DNA of 20,338 nt from a virus, in the IMG/VR virus record IMGVR_UViG_3300003495_000026, positions 5-20,342 of that record. One strand, 5' to 3'. The notes below the pieces were generated by a model, which was not told the DNA's origin, ran no database searches, and worked only from the letters and a program-made list of their open reading frames with translations. The stretch's first letter is position 1, and each line of letters begins with the position of its first letter. A program made the translations under genes and the position numbers. Below are positions 3,387 through 19,836 of the stretch, piece after piece.

Positions 3387-3683
3387 ATGAGTTTTAAATT
3401 AAAACCAAAACAAGACAGAATAATAATTAAACCAGAGGAAGTTAGTGATATTTCTGAAGGCGGAATAATTATACCCGATGGTGCAAAAGAAAGACCCAAA
3501 GAAGCTACTGTTATAGCTGTTGGTCCTGGATTATGGGAATCCTCTATAAATGGATACAGAGTTCCAGATGTACGAGTGGGAGAAGTTGTAATGTTCGCAA
3601 AATATGCAGGAATGAAAGTAATGGTGGATACAATAGACTATCTAATAATAAAAGAATCGGACATCATCGCGTCCCATAGTTAA
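3387..3683 (+). CDS. groES: GroES-type co-chaperonin (Cpn10)
   Basis: 98 residues, the normal Cpn10 length. The start LKPKQDRIIIKPEE matches the GroES first strand (L.P..DRv.vk). The segment SDISEGGIIIPDGAKERP (20-37) corresponds to the mobile loop with its GGI-type hydrophobic tripeptide that docks on GroEL. TVIAVGPG (41-48), VGEVVMFAKYAG (64-75) and the closing DYLIIKESDIIA (84-95) match the family's later strands. Phage co-chaperonins such as T4 gp31 replace or assist host GroES for folding the major capsid protein, and the same role is likely here because it lies in the late region. It has a strong ribosome binding site after an intergenic gap. A cytoplasmic heptamer cap working with host GroEL is expected. 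Confidence 0.92.
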   Translation: MSFKLKPKQDRIIIKPEEVSDISEGGIIIPDGAKERPKEATVIAVGPGLWESSINGYRVPDVRVGEVVMFAKYAGMKVMVDTIDYLIIKESDIIASHS

Positions 3684-5792: not shown

Positions 5793-6083
5793 ATGAGAAA
5801 AAGTATATTAGATAAGCTAAGAGAGTTAAAGGCAAGAAAAAAAGCTTCTACCGTGTCTTCGGCTAAGGATAAAGAAGTTAATAGAAAAGATATAACCTTT
5901 CTTCCGTCAGATTCAAATTCTACATCAATTACTGAGCATATTAATAGTAGAATAGATATGCTAATGGAGGCTGCTGGGGGTTCTGAAGCTTATGAAGATA
6001 AGGGGTCTACGGTTAATTTTATAGATGATAGTAAGGGGTATATTATCACTATAGAATATACAAAAACCGTGAGCGTTGGATGA
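5793..6083 (+). CDS. Unknown small protein, 96 residues
   Basis: Not recognised. It has a strongly basic N-terminal helix (residues 1-19, K/R-rich), a Ser/Thr/Asp-rich middle, and an end with beta-like alternation (GYIITIEYTKTVSV). AAAGGA at 5777-5782 is a reasonable ribosome binding site 10 bases before the ATG. Its stop overlaps the ClpP-like gene by 4 bases, so it may be a partner or substrate-related protein of that protease (inference). Confidence 0.55.
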   Translation: MRKSILDKLRELKARKKASTVSSAKDKEVNRKDITFLPSDSNSTSITEHINSRIDMLMEAAGGSEAYEDKGSTVNFIDDSKGYIITIEYTKTVSVG

Positions 6084-6706
6084 ATAGAATTATATTTATA
6101 ATAGAAGAAATATCCTCAGAGGGGGGACAGGATTCTTTAGTAAGGAGGGTAACAGAGCAACTATTATTTCTAGAGAGTCGTAGTAAGGAGCCAATTCATG
6201 TATTTATAGATACTGGCGGCGGTAATGTTCAAACTGCTTTGTGTCTTTTTGAATTATTTAAAATTTGTAGATCCCCAATATACACTTACGGACTATCAGA
6301 GGTTAGCTCCGCAGGAATATTACTATTTTTAGCCGGATCAAAACGTTTTTCATTAAAATACACTCAGTTTATGTCCCACCCAAGTATCTTATCTATGACA
6401 GCATCCTCCGAGGATTTCGAAGCTACTTCTGAGTCACTATTAATTCAAGGGTCACAAGTTAAACAAATATTTAAATCTACTTTAAAAATAAGTGATAAAA
6501 AGTTTAAAGACTTGCACTCTAGTACTCATTATATATGGCCAAAAGAAGCATTAAAATTAAAAATAGTAACTTCAATAATCGACAAGCTTCCAATAGTGGT
6601 TATTGAAGAATCCAGCCAGTTTTCTGAAAAAGATATGGAGTATATAGAAAAAGCAACCAGTTTTTATAAAGAATCTAAAAAACATTTATTAGCAGCGGAT
6701 TATTAA
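6080..6706 (+). CDS. ClpP-like serine protease with substituted triad Asp
   Basis: 208 residues, the usual ClpP length. EPIHVFIDTGGGNV (37-50) matches the ClpP strand and glycine-rich oxyanion segment (I.l.INSpGG.v). EVSSAGILLFLAG (74-86) aligns with the nucleophile helix, placing Ser77 as catalytic Ser. MSHPS (98-102) gives catalytic His100. In the usual DRFLSAPEA segment holding the third residue, this protein has THYIWPKEA (149-157), so the Asp is replaced by Thr149. The fold is well supported, but activity could be weak or altered. ClpP-family proteases serve in phage prohead maturation or host proteolysis. Another protease gene sits beside the capsid gene, so this one probably has a different job. 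It could be a dominant-negative or accessory subunit for host ClpP (inference). Confidence 0.75.
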   Translation: MNRIIFIIEEISSEGGQDSLVRRVTEQLLFLESRSKEPIHVFIDTGGGNVQTALCLFELFKICRSPIYTYGLSEVSSAGILLFLAGSKRFSLKYTQFMSHPSILSMTASSEDFEATSESLLIQGSQVKQIFKSTLKISDKKFKDLHSSTHYIWPKEALKLKIVTSIIDKLPIVVIEESSQFSEKDMEYIEKATSFYKESKKHLLAADY

Positions 6707-7076: not shown

Positions 7077-7327
7077 TGATAGTAGGAGGAAAACATTCTC
7101 TGCAAAAATTTAAAGGAATGAGACTTTTTCTTTGTAATCTTGCTAGTGATGGAAAACTAGATCAACTAAAACAAGAATATAAAGAAGTAAATTCTTTTTT
7201 AAAAATTAGGAAAATAATGGGAGATAATTGTGATTATCTTCTTAGCTTGTGTAAAGTTATGTATGAAAACGAAAGCTTAATAGAAAGCTTAGAGTATGAT
7301 GACGATGACGGACAAAGATTCATATAA
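7076..7327 (+). CDS. Unknown small protein, 83 residues
   Basis: Not recognised. Mostly helical by eye, with a basic N-terminal half (KHSLQKFKGMRLF) and an acidic end (EYDDDDGQ). It has two short gaps between cysteines but no zinc pattern. It overlaps the next gene by about 30 bases, because that gene offers three in-frame ATGs (7296, 7299, 7305) inside this one. The overlap suggests tight translational coupling. Confidence 0.55.
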   Translation: MIVGGKHSLQKFKGMRLFLCNLASDGKLDQLKQEYKEVNSFLKIRKIMGDNCDYLLSLCKVMYENESLIESLEYDDDDGQRFI

Positions 7328-8102
7328 ACCTGACATAACTAATACAAATGGTTCTGTTTCAAATGAGCTAAAAGAAGCTCTTGATATATTAGGAAGAGGC
7401 GCTAGTGTAAAACTAGCTGACCTTCCAGAAGTACCAGAGTTACGGCATATTTTATCTGCTTTTCCAGAAGAGAAAAGAGGTGAAATAGAATTAACAAGAG
7501 AACAAGTTGGAAAGTTACTAAAGTATATAAAAGTTGCAACTTTTGGAGTAAGCCATACTCTGCCAATGCTCTGCAGAGGATCGGAATGTCCTGTTGCAGA
7601 GTTGTGTATATTCTATAAGATGGGTATTGCTCCAGAAGGAGAAAGATGTCCAGAAGAAATTATGTACATGGAGCAGATATTACCGCAGTTTATTAAAGAT
7701 ATGGGCGTAGATATGGAAAATTATTTAGAGGTTAGTATGGTGCAAGAATATGTATCAGCGTTACTTGATAAAAGAAGAGCAGAAAGAATGATTGCCCTTG
7801 AAGGAGATGTTAAGGAAGTAGCTACAAGTGTTATTCAAGCAACTGGCACCGTTATCTATAATGAGCAAGCGACTCCTTATACAGAAATAAAAGAAAAAGC
7901 ATCTAAAAGGTTAATGCAACTTAGAAAGGAACTATTAGCTACTAGAGAGCAGCGAGCTAAATACAAGCTTACTGACGAAAGTGACCCGTCTACTAGAGCC
8001 GCAGAGATGAGAGAAAAATTTAAAAAAATACAGGATCGTGAATATAATGATAGAAAGGCCCTAGAGTCTTCTTTAGATAAAGCGTTTAAAGAGGTAAAAT
8101 AA
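7296..8102 (+). CDS. Cysteine-cluster and coiled-coil protein, possible packaging factor
   Basis: 268 residues (266 or 265 if a later ATG is used). The middle holds C93-x4-C98-x5-C104-x13-C118 within LCRGSECPVAELCIF...GERCPEE, a likely zinc or iron-sulfur site. I recall this C....CP....C.......G..CP.E style from other phage proteins of unsettled function. The C-terminal half (about 150-268) is long, charged and helical, including LMQLRKELLATREQRAKY (206-223). DNA-binding helices followed by an oligomerising coil, located upstream of the large terminase, would fit a small terminase subunit. Five genes separate them from the usual adjacent position, counting this gene to terminase, so that call is weak. 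A tape or connector role cannot be excluded. Confidence 0.6.
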   Translation: MMTMTDKDSYKPDITNTNGSVSNELKEALDILGRGASVKLADLPEVPELRHILSAFPEEKRGEIELTREQVGKLLKYIKVATFGVSHTLPMLCRGSECPVAELCIFYKMGIAPEGERCPEEIMYMEQILPQFIKDMGVDMENYLEVSMVQEYVSALLDKRRAERMIALEGDVKEVATSVIQATGTVIYNEQATPYTEIKEKASKRLMQLRKELLATREQRAKYKLTDESDPSTRAAEMREKFKKIQDREYNDRKALESSLDKAFKEVK

Positions 8103-9973: not shown

Positions 9974-10731
9974 TTTCTTCAAAGCAACTTCTTTTAACAG
10001 TCACGGGAGAATTAATAGAGGCAATGGGCTCTAAAAATAAATCTATCCTATGGTGGGATGGGAATAATTACCAAGGGATTAATATAAAAAAAGTAGAAAG
10101 CTCAAATCAGCAACTACATAAATTTATTTCTGCGCATGGAAGACTTATTGTCTGTCCATTTAATACTGATTTTGTTGGAAATCCTGTAAAAGATTATGAT
10201 ACAGTAAATTATTCCAAAATAAAAAATATAGAAAGTGTTTCGCTACCAGGTCAGCATCATAAAACTCAAGTTTCTGTTTTAGGAAATCTCCCAATTTTTG
10301 GAGATTTAAAGTATAGTAATGAAGAACTAGAGCTTCTTAAAAACTCTTTTTATTTATTTCAACATAAAAGACCCAACTCTTATACTAAACTGAATGTTGC
10401 TCGCTCTTATTCTAAATTAGCACATAAAGATTTAGAATATATAATAAGTTCTTTTCTGGATAGTAAAATAATAAAGCACCTAACCTCATCTAGTAAAGAT
10501 TTATTGATATTTTTATTGAGCCGTTTAGGCATCAGAGCCAATGGACATAGTATAGCAAGTCCATTAGCAGAACATGGAACTCTTCGAATAAAAGGAAAAT
10601 CAAATGACCCTATTCGTTATGAGAATTTAAGATATTCTGGAAAAAGTAATAATGATCCTATTAAATTAATTTTTGATAAACCAACACCCAATGTATTGAT
10701 AGGAAGTTTCTTATGTCTGAACAGTCATTAA
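9967..10731 (+). CDS. Unknown 254-residue protein, possibly intein/LAGLIDADG-derived
   Basis: Not firmly recognised. Three stretches resemble parts of inteins. Residues 10-63 (TVTGELIEAM...SILWWDGNNYQGINIKKVE...HGRLIVC) follow a Hint-like beta layout. Residues 173-190 (TSSSKDLLIFLLSRLGIR) resemble the S.L...LL.rLGI helix of LAGLIDADG endonucleases. The end PNVLIGSFLCLNSH (241-254) resembles the N-F-V...G-F-L-x-H-N-S terminal blocks. The initiating Cys, the TxxH histidine and the penultimate His are all absent, so it would not splice. By position, directly upstream of and overlapping the large terminase start by 19 bases, a small terminase subunit is the main alternative. Its C-terminal codons are doubly constrained by the terminase frame. 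Confidence 0.5.
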   Translation: MVVSSKQLLLTVTGELIEAMGSKNKSILWWDGNNYQGINIKKVESSNQQLHKFISAHGRLIVCPFNTDFVGNPVKDYDTVNYSKIKNIESVSLPGQHHKTQVSVLGNLPIFGDLKYSNEELELLKNSFYLFQHKRPNSYTKLNVARSYSKLAHKDLEYIISSFLDSKIIKHLTSSSKDLLIFLLSRLGIRANGHSIASPLAEHGTLRIKGKSNDPIRYENLRYSGKSNNDPIKLIFDKPTPNVLIGSFLCLNSH

Positions 10732-13049
10732 ACAAAGAGGACTTACTGGAGGCGCAGATTCTTAGTGATCCTGTTTACTTTGCTGAAATGTATTTACGGT
10801 CTCCTTCTGATCCAAAGAAACCTCTTATACTTAGATCCTATCAAAAGAAAATATTAAGAGATAGAACTCAGAAAAGAGTTTTAAGGCTAGGAAGACGTAC
10901 TGGAAAAACTGTAAACTTGGCTATAGAAATGATATGGAAAGCTTTTACCCACAGTGATCGTGAAATTTTAATCACTGCTGGATATGATTCCCAAGTGCAA
11001 ACATTATTTAATCTTATAAATAGAATGACAAAGGATTCACCTGATATCTCAAACTCTATTGCAAGAACACGAATGCGACCTTATGAAATTTGGTTTAAAA
11101 ACAATTCTGTTATTATGGGATATGTTGGAAATAATGCAGTTCGTGGAAAATGCCTACCGAGAGATACTAAGATTGTTAAAATGGATGGAACCTCAATTGA
11201 GATTGATAAAATTAAAGTGGGAGATAAAGTATTATCAATAGATTTAAAAAAAGAAAAATCTATTATTGGAACGGTAGAGGCAGTACATGATAATGGAATT
11301 AAAAATATTTATGAAATAGAAACTGCATCTGAGCGTTATCTAAAGGCAACGGGAAATCATAAAGTAATGACAATGGGAAGAGGATGGTGGCCCGTAGAGG
11401 ATCTATATACTCAAGAGAAAGTGGACAGAGAAGCAGACTTTATATCAGTAATTCATCCTACTGGAAAAGCCTATTGGACTAGAGTTAAAAGAATTACAAA
11501 ACTTCCTAATAAAAAAAGAACCTTTGATTTGACAGTAGAACCTTCTCATAACTTTGTCGCTTTTAATGAAAGCAAAAGTACAAAAGGGGCTGTAGCTACT
11601 GGACCCTCTATAACCTCTGGACATAAAGTTAGAGGAATAGCTCCTGGAGGTTTTTTAGTACATAACTCTGCCAATGATTTATACATCGATGAAGTTGATT
11701 CTCTAACTAATGATGCTTTAGTTGAAGCTGTTCTTCCTATATCTACCACTTATAAAGACACTACTATCACTGTTTCTGGAACCCCATCAGGGAAGCGTGA
11801 ATATTTTTATAATATAGTTAAGCAAAAAAAAGAACTAGGATTTATGGAACATTTTTTTCCATCTATGGTGAGCCCTGAGTGGAATAAAGATAGAGAGGCT
11901 GAACTTAAAGTAGTAACTTCTAGAACTCAATATGAACATGAATATTTAGCCCAATTTGGTACAGCAGCTGAAGGTGTTTTTAAGAATAATTTTATTGACT
12001 CTAATTTATATGTATATTCCTACTCATCACTAAAGTATAATCCAGATAATTTATATATCTTAGGAGTTGATTGGAATGAATCTAGATTTGGAGTACAAGC
12101 TGTGGTTTTAGAGTATATGAATACGCCAGATTATGTATTACCTTATAATGATGGAGAGTGGAAAACTATAGACGGCGGGTTGATAAACAAGGTTGAAAAA
12201 ACAAATTCTTTACGAGTTTTTTATGCTGACTCAATAGACCCTGCAGACTATACAAATATGGGCTCTGTTGAGTTTATTTTAAAATTAATGAAAAAATTTA
12301 AATTTCACAAAATGATCTTTGATCGCGGGCACGGGGAAGCGAACTACGAAATGCTTCGATTATCTATAGATAGAGGCGAAGGGCCTATGGGAACAAAATG
12401 TACTAATATGTCTTATATGTTAGAAAGAATGTCATCTGTGGATATGGGAGGTACTACTGATATAATAGATAAAATTACAGGAGTTGCTAGAAAAGCTCCT
12501 ACTAAAAATACAATGGTTAAAAATATGCAACTTTTAAATGAGAGCGGTCAGTTAATTATTCCTGCAGTAGATTTAAAAGGCACGGTTGTTGAAAATGATG
12601 AGACTAAACTTATTGGACAAATGAGAGGATATGTAGTTGAAAGAATTGGTAAACATGGAGAAGTGTATGGTTCAACGGTTAGAGACGGGCTGGATCACAG
12701 GTTAGATGCAACTATGTTGGCTGCTTATGGTTATATGCTGGATACCTCTGTCTTTTACAAAAGAGATATGGATGTTTCTGCTGATAATGTTCCAGGACTT
12801 GAATTAGCTTTTGCAAAGGGAGGATGGCGTTCTAATCTAGAAAAAATTTTAGATGTTCCTAAAGTCTCCTCACTAAATGGCTCCTTACTGTACGATCATG
12901 GAAATTGGGCTGGAAGAGGAGAGCCTGCTGAATATGAATTAAATAAGGAAGGGGCTCCAGAAAAGATTGGCAATAGAGGAACAACTAAGCGTGGATTTTC
13001 CCATAGAACTAGAACGTTGTCCGGAAGCAATAGACGGAGGAACTTGTAA
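10713..13049 (+). CDS. terL: Terminase large subunit, interrupted by an intein
   Basis: 778 residues as encoded; 606 after removal of the intein at residues 147-318. It is the ATP-driven DNA-packaging motor and nuclease. The ATPase domain shows Walker A GRRTGKT (60-66), Walker B LYIDE (323-327, just after the intein) and a coupling motif SGTPSG (355-360). The nuclease domain has acidic residues in LGVDWNE (Asp453), MIFDRGHG (Asp537) and DGLDHRLDAT (Asp658/661/665), as in RNase H-like terminase nucleases. The C-terminal tail (740-778) is basic. AGGAAG at about 10698 precedes the ATG. The stop overlaps the next gene start (TAATG). All key motifs look intact, so activity after splicing is expected. 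Confidence 0.93.
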   Translation: MSEQSLNKEDLLEAQILSDPVYFAEMYLRSPSDPKKPLILRSYQKKILRDRTQKRVLRLGRRTGKTVNLAIEMIWKAFTHSDREILITAGYDSQVQTLFNLINRMTKDSPDISNSIARTRMRPYEIWFKNNSVIMGYVGNNAVRGKCLPRDTKIVKMDGTSIEIDKIKVGDKVLSIDLKKEKSIIGTVEAVHDNGIKNIYEIETASERYLKATGNHKVMTMGRGWWPVEDLYTQEKVDREADFISVIHPTGKAYWTRVKRITKLPNKKRTFDLTVEPSHNFVAFNESKSTKGAVATGPSITSGHKVRGIAPGGFLVHNSANDLYIDEVDSLTNDALVEAVLPISTTYKDTTITVSGTPSGKREYFYNIVKQKKELGFMEHFFPSMVSPEWNKDREAELKVVTSRTQYEHEYLAQFGTAAEGVFKNNFIDSNLYVYSYSSLKYNPDNLYILGVDWNESRFGVQAVVLEYMNTPDYVLPYNDGEWKTIDGGLINKVEKTNSLRVFYADSIDPADYTNMGSVEFILKLMKKFKFHKMIFDRGHGEANYEMLRLSIDRGEGPMGTKCTNMSYMLERMSSVDMGGTTDIIDKITGVARKAPTKNTMVKNMQLLNESGQLIIPAVDLKGTVVENDETKLIGQMRGYVVERIGKHGEVYGSTVRDGLDHRLDATMLAAYGYMLDTSVFYKRDMDVSADNVPGLELAFAKGGWRSNLEKILDVPKVSSLNGSLLYDHGNWAGRGEPAEYELNKEGAPEKIGNRGTTKRGFSHRTRTLSGSNRRRNL
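11151..11666 (+). other. Mini-intein inside the terminase large subunit
   Basis: 172 residues, from Cys147 to Asn318 of the terminase precursor, with Ser319 as the first C-extein residue. Block A begins CLPRDTKIVKMDG. A second block reads IKVGDKVLSID (167-177). Block B has the T-G-N-H motif (213-216). Block F reads TFDLTVEPSHNFVA (270-283), with the conserved Asp272 and His279. Block G is GGFLVHN/S (312-319). All residues needed for class 1 splicing are present. There is no LAGLIDADG or HNH endonuclease domain, so it is a minimal intein. Between blocks F and G lies an extra segment of about 28 residues (284-311), rich in Ser, Gly and Lys, that normal inteins lack. Insertion is between Walker A and Walker B, 4 residues before the Walker B strand, so the unspliced protein should be inactive. 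Confidence 0.93.
13036..13040 (+). promoter_or_regulatory. Ribosome binding site of the 753-residue protein
   Basis: GGAGG, 8 bases before the ATG at 13049, inside the terminase 3' end. It supports the start chosen for the downstream gene. Confidence 0.6.
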
Positions 13050-15310: not shown

Positions 15311-17067
15311 TGGCTAAATTTAATTTTCCATTCTTTGGTAATAGAAAAACTCTTGAACAAAGAATTGATAAAATCTTAGTAAAAAGAAATCAAAGTATTC
15401 AAGGGGAGCCTAGTGCTAAAATTGTAGACCAATCTACGCGCTCTAATAGTATTTCCAATATTCTTAAAAATCTAAAGTCAAAGGTATTGAGCGTTATTGG
15501 AGGAGGGAATAGAGGAATATACGTTACTCCTGAGTGGGACTTTAAAAAAATTCAATTAGCTTTTACTAATGAATCTATCTTTAGACGCTCTGTTGAAAAA
15601 TATGTAGAACAAATAAGAAAACATTCTTGGGAATTTATAGGCAATAATCCAAACACAGTTGAGTATATAAGAAAAAGATTTAATCAAATTGCAATTGTAA
15701 CCAATAAACCTACTTCTGAGCTATTCGATGAAATATCTTTTAATATGGTTTTATATTCAAATGCTATAATAACTAAGCAACGAAATAGAAAAGCATCTGG
15801 AGGAAAAGAAAGAAAAACATTTGATGGATTCACAAGAGTGCCTGTAGCAGGATATCAAGTAGCTGATCCAAGCACTATTCAAGTAGATAGAGATAACTAC
15901 GGTAATGTAAAAAAATGGAAACAAATCATCGGCCAGAATTTGAGCAAAACTGCAGTACAAAGTTCTTTTTCTAGATTAATAAACAATAAAACTAAAGAAA
16001 CAGCTTCTCCCGAGTGGAGTACATACAATATTGTTCATATAAAAGATAGAAGTGCTACTCCATCTATGTTCTTCTTTGCAATGCCTATGTCTGTTCCAGT
16101 AATAGCGGACATGGAGGCTCTAAGAGAGTTAGAAGAACTTTCATTGTTAGAGTCTATAAAAGTAGCAATTCCAAAACTTCACGCTAAGGTCGGTAGTAAG
16201 GATCAACCCGGTACTCAGGATCAAGTAGATGATCTTGCTGGAACCATTCAAAGTTTAACAGGAGACGGTGTTCTAGTAACAACCGAAAGAGTAACTGTGG
16301 ATGATATTGCTAAAGCAACAAATGCAAATAATATATTAACCGCCTCTCTAGATTATTTTAGAGCTAGAATATTAGCAGGATTAGGAATGTCCGGTGTTGC
16401 AATGGGAGATGGAGACTCTGCGAACAGGGCCACCGCCCAAGTAATTAGTTCTGAAATGCAAAGCACTTCCGCAAAATATCAAAGAATCTTAAAAAACTCC
16501 ATAGAATTTTATATAGTCCGTGAGCTATTATATGAATCTGGATACACTGAGTTTACATTAAATGATGATAATATGGTTTATTTATCTATTCCTGAAGTTG
16601 ATTTAACTGAAAAAATTAAACGTGAGGCCCACCAACTTAATCTATATATTAATAATGCTATTACAGAAGATGAGCTTAGAAAAGAATTAGGAAGAGATAT
16701 TCTTATAGCTGAGGATAATCTGTATCTTAAAAATGTTCAAATTCCACTAGCTGAAGCTGGTGCTTCTAACCTTGCGGCGCCCGGCGAAAACTCTAGTAAT
16801 AATAATTCACGCCCAACTAACCAGCACGGCACTCAGTTAGCAAAGCCTAACATAAAAAAAGATTATTATAAAAAACTATGGAATGAGGCTTTAGGGACGA
16901 AAAGTTCTGGGGAGCTTGATACATTAATTACCGGGTCTAAGTTGGACCCGTATGACATAACTACTATGAAAATTATGTTACGAAGACACTCAACTAATGC
17001 TAACTTAAATGATACGATTGGAATTGTCTTTGACGCACTAGAAGCACAAATTACAAAGGATGCTTAA
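15310..17067 (+). CDS. Portal protein
   Basis: 585 residues, a normal portal length. The dodecameric portal forms the vertex through which terminase packages DNA and to which the tail attaches. Residues about 74-220 (VTPEWDFKKIQLAFTNESIF onward) form the beginning of the core. VADPSTIQVDRDNYGNVKKW (194-213) is the typical portal beta segment (l.p..i....d..G.v..y). ARILAGLGMSGVAMGDGDSA (355-374), followed by NRATAQVISSEMQS, matches the portal signature (lg.p...lg....nra.a). The next helix and a basic, Asn/Ser-rich C-terminal extension (about 490-520) complete it. Its location between terminase and prohead protease supports the call. It overlaps both neighbours by one base. Confidence 0.85.
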   Translation: MAKFNFPFFGNRKTLEQRIDKILVKRNQSIQGEPSAKIVDQSTRSNSISNILKNLKSKVLSVIGGGNRGIYVTPEWDFKKIQLAFTNESIFRRSVEKYVEQIRKHSWEFIGNNPNTVEYIRKRFNQIAIVTNKPTSELFDEISFNMVLYSNAIITKQRNRKASGGKERKTFDGFTRVPVAGYQVADPSTIQVDRDNYGNVKKWKQIIGQNLSKTAVQSSFSRLINNKTKETASPEWSTYNIVHIKDRSATPSMFFFAMPMSVPVIADMEALRELEELSLLESIKVAIPKLHAKVGSKDQPGTQDQVDDLAGTIQSLTGDGVLVTTERVTVDDIAKATNANNILTASLDYFRARILAGLGMSGVAMGDGDSANRATAQVISSEMQSTSAKYQRILKNSIEFYIVRELLYESGYTEFTLNDDNMVYLSIPEVDLTEKIKREAHQLNLYINNAITEDELRKELGRDILIAEDNLYLKNVQIPLAEAGASNLAAPGENSSNNNSRPTNQHGTQLAKPNIKKDYYKKLWNEALGTKSSGELDTLITGSKLDPYDITTMKIMLRRHSTNANLNDTIGIVFDALEAQITKDA

Positions 17068-17411
17068 TGGAACACGAATATTTGGAGTTTAGATGTCCCC
17101 AATGTGGATCTTTATTATGCAAGTATGCAGATCAAGAAAAACCTTATGCAGCCGAAATTAAATGCCAAAAAAGAGGATGCTCTTCTATTAATATTAGAGC
17201 CAACTGTGTTCCAACTAATTTAGTGGAATTAAGATGCCAACTTATCGATGAGAAAAAATCAGAAAAATGGGGAGCGACTACTGTGTGTAATAAACTTTTA
17301 GCAAAAATTATTCCAGGATCAAGTGTTGAAGTTAAATGCCCTAGGTGTAAAAATATAACAGAGGGCCTGTCCCAATTTCCTGAACTTTTAGTGGAGAATA
17401 TACATGAATAA
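17067..17411 (+). CDS. Double zinc-ribbon protein, Mu Com-like
   Basis: 114 residues with two zinc-ribbon-like units. Unit one: C10-x2-C13 ... C33-x4-C38. Unit two: C57 ... C74 ... C91-x2-C94. The second unit, with CNKLLAK followed by VEVKCPRCKNIT, closely follows the pattern of the phage Mu Com protein (RC..C.kLL.......eikCPRC), a zinc-binding RNA-binding activator of translation. A tandem or diverged pair of Com-like modules could bind phage mRNA, for example at the overlapping protease start (overlap 8 bases), which would fit translational control of the capsid genes (inference). Cys57 lacks a close partner Cys, so the second site may use another residue. Confidence 0.65.
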   Translation: MEHEYLEFRCPQCGSLLCKYADQEKPYAAEIKCQKRGCSSINIRANCVPTNLVELRCQLIDEKKSEKWGATTVCNKLLAKIIPGSSVEVKCPRCKNITEGLSQFPELLVENIHE

Positions 17412-19836
17412 ACTATTACATAATTTTGAAGACCATAGCGAGAGCTCTATTTCAACAGATTTTACTTTAGCTGAAGGTACTAAAAATAGTTTACCTACTT
17501 CTATTTTAATTATGTTGGATGCAACTCATTCGGGTTATAGAAATAAAAATTTCTTTCATTATGATACAGATGCTATGCGATATGCTGTATCTAAAGATGT
17601 TTGGACTTCCCCTTTCCCAAAACCATTTTTAAAGAATCACGACTTAGACAGTGAACCCTTAGGTAGAGTTCAAGCAGCTCGTTTTATTGATTCTGCGGAT
17701 GGCAAGGGATTTACTCAACTAGACGTACTAGTAACTGATAAGGATGCAATAGAGAAAATAATAGATGGTAGATACCTAACTGTATCCACCCACGGAGCAC
17801 CTCTAAAAGATGCTATCGCTGACTATAATTTTACAAAGTGTTCTATATGTAATATTAATTTAAATATAGAAGATTATTGCGGTCATAGTAGAGGAAGGGT
17901 CTATGAAGACGAGGATGGTATAGAAAAACAGTGTTTTTGGATTGTAGGAGCTTTAGACTATAAAGAAGTGTCTATTGTAAATACTCCTGCTGATAATGAT
18001 GGAACTACTGCTGCCCAAATAACAGGTGTTTCTATGATTGATGGTGAAAACCCTGCATCTCCCTGTAAAGGAGACTCTTGTCAAGTTCAAAAAAGCATGG
18101 TATTTATTGACTCGGAAGTTAATTATGCCAGCGAGACTTTTTTAGATGCTTGTGATATATTAGCTGAATTATTAGTTGCTAATAAAGTTTTGTGGAAAGC
18201 TGTTAAATATAATAAACAGACCTATATTGATCAAAAAGGATTATTATATGATGAAGATATTATATTAGCAAAATTAGAAAAAAAAGAATTACAAAAAATA
18301 AAAGAATCGGAAGACTGTACAAAACTTGAGGATAATGAAAATTCCCAAGAATTGAAAGAAAAAAAACCAACAGAACCGATTGTAACTCCAAAAGACTATA
18401 TGACTGAATGCTGCAGAGATCAAGATGCATATCTTAGTTCAGATGAGTTAGGGGGTTTGGCCATTAAACATTCCCACGTAGTTTACTATGAAGATGAACT
18501 AAAGAATGGTTATACTGATTGGGTTCTAGATCATTCTCATAGTGTTGTTGATGGAAAAATACTACCAACTATCATAAGGGGTACGGAAGAAAGTCATGAT
18601 CATCAAATTGGAAAAGACAAGATAGAAGTAGTTCACACAAAAATGCTTTTAGATTATAAAAATGATCATAGACATGTAGTATATATAAATGCTGCTGGAA
18701 ACGGGCATGCAAGTTATGTAGACGGGCATAGCCACGAAGTAGTAAATAATAAAATACTAAAGTCTAATGCAAACCATATCCATAAGTTAGTAGATTGGCC
18801 TGACGATCTAAATGATTTTGAATCCGAAGAAGGAGTATTTACCTCTTTAAATGATTTAGAGGCTTTAAAAGAAAAAACAAGTAAAGAAGAAATAAAAAAT
18901 TATTACGATGCCGTTTTAAAGCAGCATCAGTATAATAACAACGCCTTTGAGCGATATCAATATAGCTCCATATTTGAGTCTATTGATACGGAACTAACCG
19001 ATATAACATTACTTATAGGAAATGAAGCAATGAAACAACTAAATGATCTTACGCTGGAAAAACTAAATAAAACTATTGATGGTGCTTCTACAGAAAAAGT
19101 AGAACGTATTAAATTATTAATAGAAAATAACAGCAAAATATCCGACGACGTTAAGCAGGCTTTCCTAGAAGCAATCAAAACCCTTTTGCAAAAAGCTGAA
19201 GAAGGTAATGATGCTGAAGATGCTGCTAAAAACAATGAAGACACAGACAAGAATTCTCCCGCTGATCTTGTTGAAGCTTTAAAGATTGATGGAATGGATT
19301 CTTATATGGAATCTGTTAAAGATGAATCTTTTAAAGATGGATACAAGACTGGTTATGAAGAAGCTAGTGTTGCTGTTTCTCTCGACGACTCCTCTAAATC
19401 AGAGGAAAAAGATTCTGAATTAGCCGCTTCCGAACAGGAAGACACTAATAAAGAGACTAACGCCGATACAGATGGAGAAGAACAAAACACAAAAGACGAA
19501 GAACAGAGCAAGAAAGAGATAGAAGAAGTTAAGAATATTCTTATAGATTCTATCGTACACAGCGTTACTGCTCTTCGTAAATCAGAAATTGATTTAGAAA
19601 ATATTGAAAGCTCTAAAGATGCTTATAAAGCCTCTTTAGCAGATAAAAATATTGATGAATTAAGAGACTTATATAAAGAACTTGATAAAGACATGCTAGA
19701 TGCATTCGTTAATGTTCCTAGTGAGGCTCTTAATAAGGAAACAATTTCTGAAGATAAGCCCGAGGGCTTAAATGATAACGAAAAGCCAATGAGCGATACT
19801 AAAAAAGTTATCACATCTTACTTTAAATCTAAATAA
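17404..19836 (+). CDS. Prohead protease fused to a His-rich repeat and scaffold-like tail
   Basis: 810 residues in three parts. Residues about 30-200 form a prohead maturation protease: FLKNHDLDSEPLGRV (75-89) gives catalytic His79, and GRYLTVSTHG (122-131) gives catalytic Ser128, in the order His then Ser seen in HK97/T4 gp21-type proteases. YKEVSIVNTPADNDG (186-200) is the typical closing strand. A probable zinc site is inserted (C146, C149, C159, H161, C177). Residues 356-460 carry six HxH motifs about 20 apart. Residues about 470-810 are acidic, helical and low in complexity, like a scaffold. A protease-scaffold fusion next to the capsid gene fits lambda C/Nu3 logic: the scaffold shapes the prohead and the protease then removes it. 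GGAGA at 17393-17397 precedes the ATG. Confidence 0.82.
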   Translation: MNKLLHNFEDHSESSISTDFTLAEGTKNSLPTSILIMLDATHSGYRNKNFFHYDTDAMRYAVSKDVWTSPFPKPFLKNHDLDSEPLGRVQAARFIDSADGKGFTQLDVLVTDKDAIEKIIDGRYLTVSTHGAPLKDAIADYNFTKCSICNINLNIEDYCGHSRGRVYEDEDGIEKQCFWIVGALDYKEVSIVNTPADNDGTTAAQITGVSMIDGENPASPCKGDSCQVQKSMVFIDSEVNYASETFLDACDILAELLVANKVLWKAVKYNKQTYIDQKGLLYDEDIILAKLEKKELQKIKESEDCTKLEDNENSQELKEKKPTEPIVTPKDYMTECCRDQDAYLSSDELGGLAIKHSHVVYYEDELKNGYTDWVLDHSHSVVDGKILPTIIRGTEESHDHQIGKDKIEVVHTKMLLDYKNDHRHVVYINAAGNGHASYVDGHSHEVVNNKILKSNANHIHKLVDWPDDLNDFESEEGVFTSLNDLEALKEKTSKEEIKNYYDAVLKQHQYNNNAFERYQYSSIFESIDTELTDITLLIGNEAMKQLNDLTLEKLNKTIDGASTEKVERIKLLIENNSKISDDVKQAFLEAIKTLLQKAEEGNDAEDAAKNNEDTDKNSPADLVEALKIDGMDSYMESVKDESFKDGYKTGYEEASVAVSLDDSSKSEEKDSELAASEQEDTNKETNADTDGEEQNTKDEEQSKKEIEEVKNILIDSIVHSVTALRKSEIDLENIESSKDAYKASLADKNIDELRDLYKELDKDMLDAFVNVPSEALNKETISEDKPEGLNDNEKPMSDTKKVITSYFKSK
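18469..18783 (+). repeat. Six-copy HxH protein repeat within the prohead protease gene
   Basis: In the encoded protein, HSH (356-358), HSH (377-379), HDH (398-400), HRH (422-424), HSH (442-444) and HIH (458-460) recur at steps of 21, 21, 24, 20 and 16 residues, with DGK, DGH or NGH turns and V-V or V-D strands between. The arrangement suggests stacked beta hairpins with metal between histidines, comparable in motif to the HxH iron sites known in the T4 gp37 fibre tip. Function in a capsid protease is unknown. Confidence 0.7.

Follow-up and report, generated by a model that had tools for sequence, protein, structure and literature searches.

A predicted maturation protease fused to a scaffold, with two copies of a recurrent histidine module in the linker, in a tailed phage

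How is a single phage protein to be understood in which a putative prohead protease, a stretch rich in HxH motifs and an acidic tail follow each other in one reading frame? Such a protein of 810 aa, here labeled P0001, is encoded by an unbroken frame (17404..19836, + strand) in the window, i.e., the whole stretch of 20,338 nucleotides from an IMG/VR virus record of 20,342 bases that was analyzed; all coordinates refer to this window, and the parts of the frame given below lie on the same strand. A sequence-only reading had taken the protein for a protease-scaffold fusion into which a six-copy HxH repeat and a Cys/His cluster had been inserted. Its layout, from the N-terminus, is an ordered protease (residues ∼30–280), a disordered linker, an ordered beta region (∼350–465) and an acidic scaffold part (543–810). 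We consider it the best explanation of the whole, at a probability of roughly 70%, that this is a head-maturation gene of a tailed phage, encoding a serine protease of the gp21/assemblin fold joined to a scaffold, with two modules of three HxH each in the linker that likely bind metal, and with an internal methionine (M543) that probably gives rise to free scaffold. Compared loci are designated by L-numbers.

Gene neighborhood

The genes upstream of that for P0001 encode a large terminase with an intein, a portal and a zinc-ribbon protein. P0001 is also encoded, with 100% identity, on another IMG/VR contig (L003), and there the gene is followed by those of a 328-aa protein and of a 449-aa protein, the latter in the position of the capsid gene and assigned as such by this position. 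The gene order is portal, zinc-ribbon protein, protease and capsid genes, and the protease is thus located between portal and capsid genes. Searches of Pfam, PHROGs and NCBIfam with P0001 itself gave no match.

The large terminase gene (10713–13049) is interrupted by an intein (Intein_splicing, E 8e-15; TIGR01445) which, being only ∼150 residues long, probably lacks an endonuclease. The window also encodes a GroES-like co-chaperonin of the phage's own (3387–3683; Cpn10, E 1.6e-23) and, upstream of the terminase, a ClpP-family protein (6080–6706; E 8e-22) that is additional to the gp21-type protease, while a match to a small terminase (7296–8102) is borderline (Terminase_4, E 4e-5, just under its cut-off). 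The small zinc-ribbon protein between portal and protease (17067–17411) is weakly similar to Mu Com and is conserved in relatives.

A recurrent 10-mer of the coding strand, TGACATAACT, resembles a late promoter. The window holds exactly four copies, all on the + (coding) strand (1696, 7331, 15094 and 16953). On the coding strands of related loci it is the commonest 10-mer and never occurs antisense (it was noted at L004, L014, L017, L020, L101, L125 and L130), and six whole records contain 30 copies vs. 0 for the reversed pattern; it is absent from 479 kb of distant loci. Often spaced by ∼1.9 kb, copies precede the portal gene by ∼217 nt and the zinc-ribbon gene by ∼114 nt, and in relatives one stands directly before the gene for free scaffold. 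Where DIT occurs in long frames, it is encoded by exactly the TGACATAACT codons in 14 of 17 cases.

Protease domain

The N-terminal part of P0001 is taken as a maturation serine protease of the gp21/assemblin type, its proteolytic activity being predicted from homology and from the structural model. Residues 23–210 match two phage proteins, one from Bacillus phage KLEB27-3 that is annotated as "prohead protease" and one from Moorella phage MTATph1, and relatives of the protease are encoded at 80 IMG/VR loci. The core (residues 30–207; 17491..18024) is defined by the homology to the KLEB27-3 protein, by invariant residues and by structural matches. H79 (17638–17640), S128 (17785–17787) and E188 (17965–17967) are invariant in 31–33 aligned homologues, a conservation that suggests catalytic roles for all three, S128 being the candidate nucleophile. 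The gathering threshold of Pfam Peptidase_S78 (PF04586) was reached neither by P0001, which had no match, nor by its relative L016 (E 0.073, below threshold).

A predicted model of residues 1–481 shows high confidence across the protease and the helices after it. The best 30 VIA-align matches are T4 gp21 or herpesvirus proteases, with Z from 10.1 down to 5.5, and unrelated chains appear from 4.8. The top structural match to residues 30–194 is T4 gp21 (PDB 5jbl; Z 10.1 over 124 residues, rmsd 2.6), and herpesvirus proteases reach Z 9.7 (VZV protease, 1vzv); in Foldseek alone gp21 came third, at a weak E-value. The protease is followed by a helical segment in the predicted model (residues 232–308; 18097..18327) that is conserved with L010 and whose first part falls within the aligned range of the herpes assemblin structures (to residue 280).

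Inside the protease domain lies a C-x2-C-x9-C-x-H cluster (residues 146–161; 17839..17886), a zinc-type site that may bind zinc. It had been regarded as an insertion. However, C146, C149, C159 and H161 are all invariant in the 31–33 protease homologues, the Moorella and Bacillus phage proteins included, and we therefore rejected the insert: the cluster is a standard part of the P0001 protease family.

Scaffold fusion and a candidate internal start

The interpretation of the acidic tail (residues 543–810; 19030..19833; pI 4.39, 26% D/E) as a scaffold in a protease fusion is supported by its homology to free proteins that relatives encode right after the protease. Residues 543–807 are homologous to free scaffold ORFs of L101 (39% identity and, with E 1e-45, the best match), L014, L016, L018 and L020, and in L014, L015, L016, L018, L020, L101, L125 and L130 the protease ORF stops and a separate ORF of ∼220–250 aa follows. 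In P0001 the protease ORF runs on in frame into the scaffold, which makes up its C-terminal part. This fusion was found only in P0001 and L008/L010, the other members of the HxH clade that were checked having a separate scaffold gene.

In the unfused relatives the gap between the two genes contains the TGACATAACT motif, a ribosome-site-like sequence and an ATG. The P0001 gene retains a degenerate copy of the motif, CGATATAACA (18999..19008), whose counterpart precedes the free scaffold gene in relatives, and M543 (19030..19032), which aligns with the start codon of the free scaffold gene and has an AGGA 9 nt upstream. Because the motif remnant, the AGGA and the ATG lie inside the fused ORF, comparison of the loci shows that the scaffold gene was fused to the protease gene, to judge from these sequences, by read-in of the old intergenic region.

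M543 is a candidate internal translation start, and by analogy with lambda Nu3 and herpes UL26.5 free scaffold is probably still made in excess from this old start. Independent evidence for initiation there is slight, however, since in this phage the promoter-like motif is degraded and no raised codon conservation is seen. The latter was tried as a mark of an internal start and not borne out, conservation between P0001 and L010 being 0.62 near M543 vs. 0.63 overall. Both observations would fit a fused ORF that makes the full-length protein only, with the scaffold always tethered to one protease and no free scaffold. Against this, both fused lineages keep the AGGA and the ATG, and L004/L009 have the motif nearly intact, as TGACATAACC, inside the fused ORF; moreover, in herpesviruses protease-linked scaffold makes up ∼10% of the scaffold (PMC12474303), and next to this a protease on every scaffold copy would be unusual. 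We give such exclusive tethering the lesser, though still a considerable, chance. In the preferred reading, with free scaffold made beside the fusion protein, the scaffold part would co-assemble with the capsid protein and bring the protease into the prohead, and maturation cleavage would then free and degrade the scaffold, as in T4, lambda and herpesviruses.

Two units of three HxH

P0001 contains six HxH motifs (at residues 356, 377, 398, 422, 442 and 458). The sequence-only reading was right in their number, and they are conserved in homologous proteases, but instead of six equal repeats they form two units of three HxH. Unit 1 spans residues ∼354–402 (18463..18609; HxH at 18469, 18532 and 18595) and unit 2 residues 420–462 (18661..18789; HxH at 18667, 18727 and 18775). 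A unit has ∼45 residues and consists of HxH, ∼7–8 residues, (G)NG, ∼7 residues, HxH, a variable spacer and HxH.

The segment is rich in histidine (14 of 131 residues), and it might be asked whether it is fortuitous low-complexity sequence. When the whole protein was shuffled, at least six HxH arose in 3 of 100,000 trials and six within 105 residues in none; shuffling of the His-rich residues 340–470 alone gave at least six in 47 of 100,000. The density of six HxH is not due to chance. Stronger evidence than the shuffles is the conservation in homologous proteases, where three or six HxH occur in the same place (L014/L015, L016/L018, L020, L101, L125 and L130). In addition, a model built from 27 units outside the P0001 protease family recovered both units (i-E 1e-3 for unit 1 and 2.4e-8 for unit 2; 47.5 bits, with 9.8 as the best of 4000 shuffles). 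Together with the ordered structure predicted for the segment and the conservation over many proteins (see below), these results make a fortuitous origin extremely improbable.

Both units lie in an exchangeable cassette (residues 309–497; 18328..18894), which carries HxH in P0001 and a phrog_16160 (FCGPxRSFP) domain in the closest relatives: L010/L008 are 77% identical in the protease, and the equivalent of residues 309–497 is replaced there by a domain matching phrog_16160. Distant relatives, too, have an FCGP-type domain between protease and tail, and L020 and L130 have a divergent one after the HxH units. In the protease tree, P0001, L010/L008 and the HxH proteins, 11 rows together, fall into one clade (support 96/94), and P0001 groups with L010/L008 (100/95). 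Given these clades, HxH was most simply ancestral in the clade and lost in L010/L008. As its nearest relatives replace the HxH module, it is, on this comparative evidence, an accessory and dispensable part of the protein.

Distribution of the three-HxH unit

IMG/VR was searched with a codon pattern in which the first two HxH, GNG and a loosely coded Ser/Thr were fixed and the third HxH was left free. It matched 49 stretches; matches at L089, L092, L095, L096 and L114 were judged spurious-looking and left out. Although the pattern did not require it, a third HxH followed within 45 residues in 39 of 40 distinct ORFs of at least 55 aa. The six histidines of a unit are invariant in a 22-row alignment, four of them having been fixed by the pattern in most rows and two not.

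In total, the unit is present in ∼30 diverse phage proteins. Among these are HK97-type S78 proteases (L099, L100) and a further S78-type protease (L119), a polyprotein that also bears an XkdF-type S78_2 protease (L113), the "protease" of PHROG 15223 (phrog_15223, XkdF type), and the serine proteases of the cultured Stenotrophomonas phages DLP3 and DLP5, which bear one unit and have the major capsid gene a few genes downstream. It was further found at the C-terminus of a portal (L088), in a methyltransferase (L098), in a ligase-containing giant protein (L103) and as small free ORFs of 61–93 aa. The units in several non-homologous prohead proteases and at the portal C-terminus speak against the earlier view of HxH arrays as a fibre-tip feature foreign to capsid proteases.

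At L103, the ligase-containing protein of 1676 aa has one unit and adjoins a 208-aa frame with two weaker ones. Fourteen bacterial genomes, nearly all of planctomycetes (L136–L149), encode an HxH-NG-HxH hairpin with a further HxH upstream, and the planctomycete protein with this two-HxH half of the unit looks, from its sequence, like an ABC-type permease.

The unit is not covered by any Pfam or NCBIfam model. When phage records were searched by BLAST with the HxH segment, only chance-level matches were obtained, mostly to tail fibres; searches with short single-unit queries mostly gave no match, a consensus-like (non-natural) query none. The unit is a widespread but undescribed histidine module.

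Predicted structure and putative metal binding

Two structure predictions agree on an ordered, all-beta module region: residues ∼341–465 are predicted as ordered (pLDDT mostly 70–90) and are flanked by two disordered linkers. Within the limits of prediction the repeat does have an ordered fold, and the originally proposed fusion of protease and scaffold, with an HxH segment of ordered structure between them, is supported by this order and by the scaffold homology. The module is predicted to be a small all-beta domain. Fold libraries searched with the HxH model yielded nothing significant (best Z 2.8), which does not show a new fold; one BFVD match had a probability of 0.99 but a TM of 0.37 and E 0.2. 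With a sequence profile of the module, no match was obtained among PDB chains at E 10, gp37 included.

Strict pairing in HxH with invariant histidines is typical of metal ligands. Since six invariant histidines are what one octahedral site needs, as in T4 gp37, each unit most likely holds one metal ion. A module without metal, in which the histidine cluster serves as a pH-sensitive or peptide-binding docking surface, would agree with the fact that AlphaFold predicts an ordered fold with no metal in the model; it would leave the strict HxH pairing and the invariance of all six histidines across unrelated proteins without a reason, and we regard it as unlikely.

The metal might also be bound between molecules. 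HxH motifs coordinate iron in the tail-fibre tip of T4 gp37 (PMC11705849), and HxH of several chains could stack in the manner of this needle, the metal gluing protease-scaffold subunits into the prohead core; scaffolds do oligomerize, and two units per chain would permit cross-linking. But with three HxH at fixed spacing and six invariant histidines, one chain already offers six ligands, the unit also occurs in free ORFs of 60–90 aa and, in part, in a membrane permease, and its sequence matches neither gp37 nor any PDB chain. Intermolecular sites appear improbable to us, about as much as a module free of metal.

We favor one putative metal site within each unit. The recurrence of the module beside unrelated prohead proteases and on a portal makes a role as a metal-stabilized docking or stability part likelier than a catalytic one, whereas its presence in a methyltransferase, a ligase and an ABC permease, i.e., outside head assembly, weakens a role specific to the prohead. 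It is tempting to speculate, and we do so only tentatively, that the unit is an undescribed mobile metal-binding domain added time and again in phages to unrelated prohead proteases and to portals, and that the metal controls or stabilizes the maturation machinery inside the prohead and may stay in the virion.

The comparison defines an unnamed, recurrent histidine module of phage head proteins, whose metal binding becomes testable with the cultured phages DLP3 and DLP5. The compared loci also form a natural series that leads from a protease gene and a scaffold gene standing apart to a single fusion gene, as in lambda and herpesviruses, for which the origin of the fused arrangement has, to our knowledge, usually only been inferred.

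Comparison with known systems

P0001 shares the protease fold of T4 gp21 (PDB 5jbl), at an identity of 13%, and differs from it by the C3H cluster, the HxH units and the fused scaffold. The phrog_15223 proteases (DLP3/DLP5, XkdF type) resemble it in that a three-HxH unit directly follows a prohead-type protease and the major capsid gene lies a few genes further on, but they belong to the XkdF/Peptidase_S78_2 family, have a single unit and are not fused to a scaffold. With the iron needle of T4 gp37 the module has in common the HxH pairs as likely metal ligands. In gp37, however, the six histidines of one site come from three chains, whereas the P0001 unit combines three HxH in one chain with a conserved NG turn.

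The closest parallels in gene arrangement are lambda and the herpesviruses. Lambda gpC/Nu3 is alike in that the scaffold is encoded within the protease gene, Nu3 being the C-terminal, in-frame part of gene C, while gpC belongs to a ClpP-like protease family different from that of P0001. Herpesvirus UL26/UL26.5 shares both the assemblin fold and the order of an N-terminal protease and a C-terminal scaffold in one ORF; we know of no HxH module there. An interaction of C with Nu3 is listed (PMC3224144). The free scaffold of herpesviruses is the product of a nested gene and is identical to the C-terminus (PMC12474303); the putative internal start of P0001 would be the counterpart of this nested gene. 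P0001 is thus a variation on the known protease-scaffold arrangement of lambda and herpesviruses, with two copies of an undescribed histidine module.
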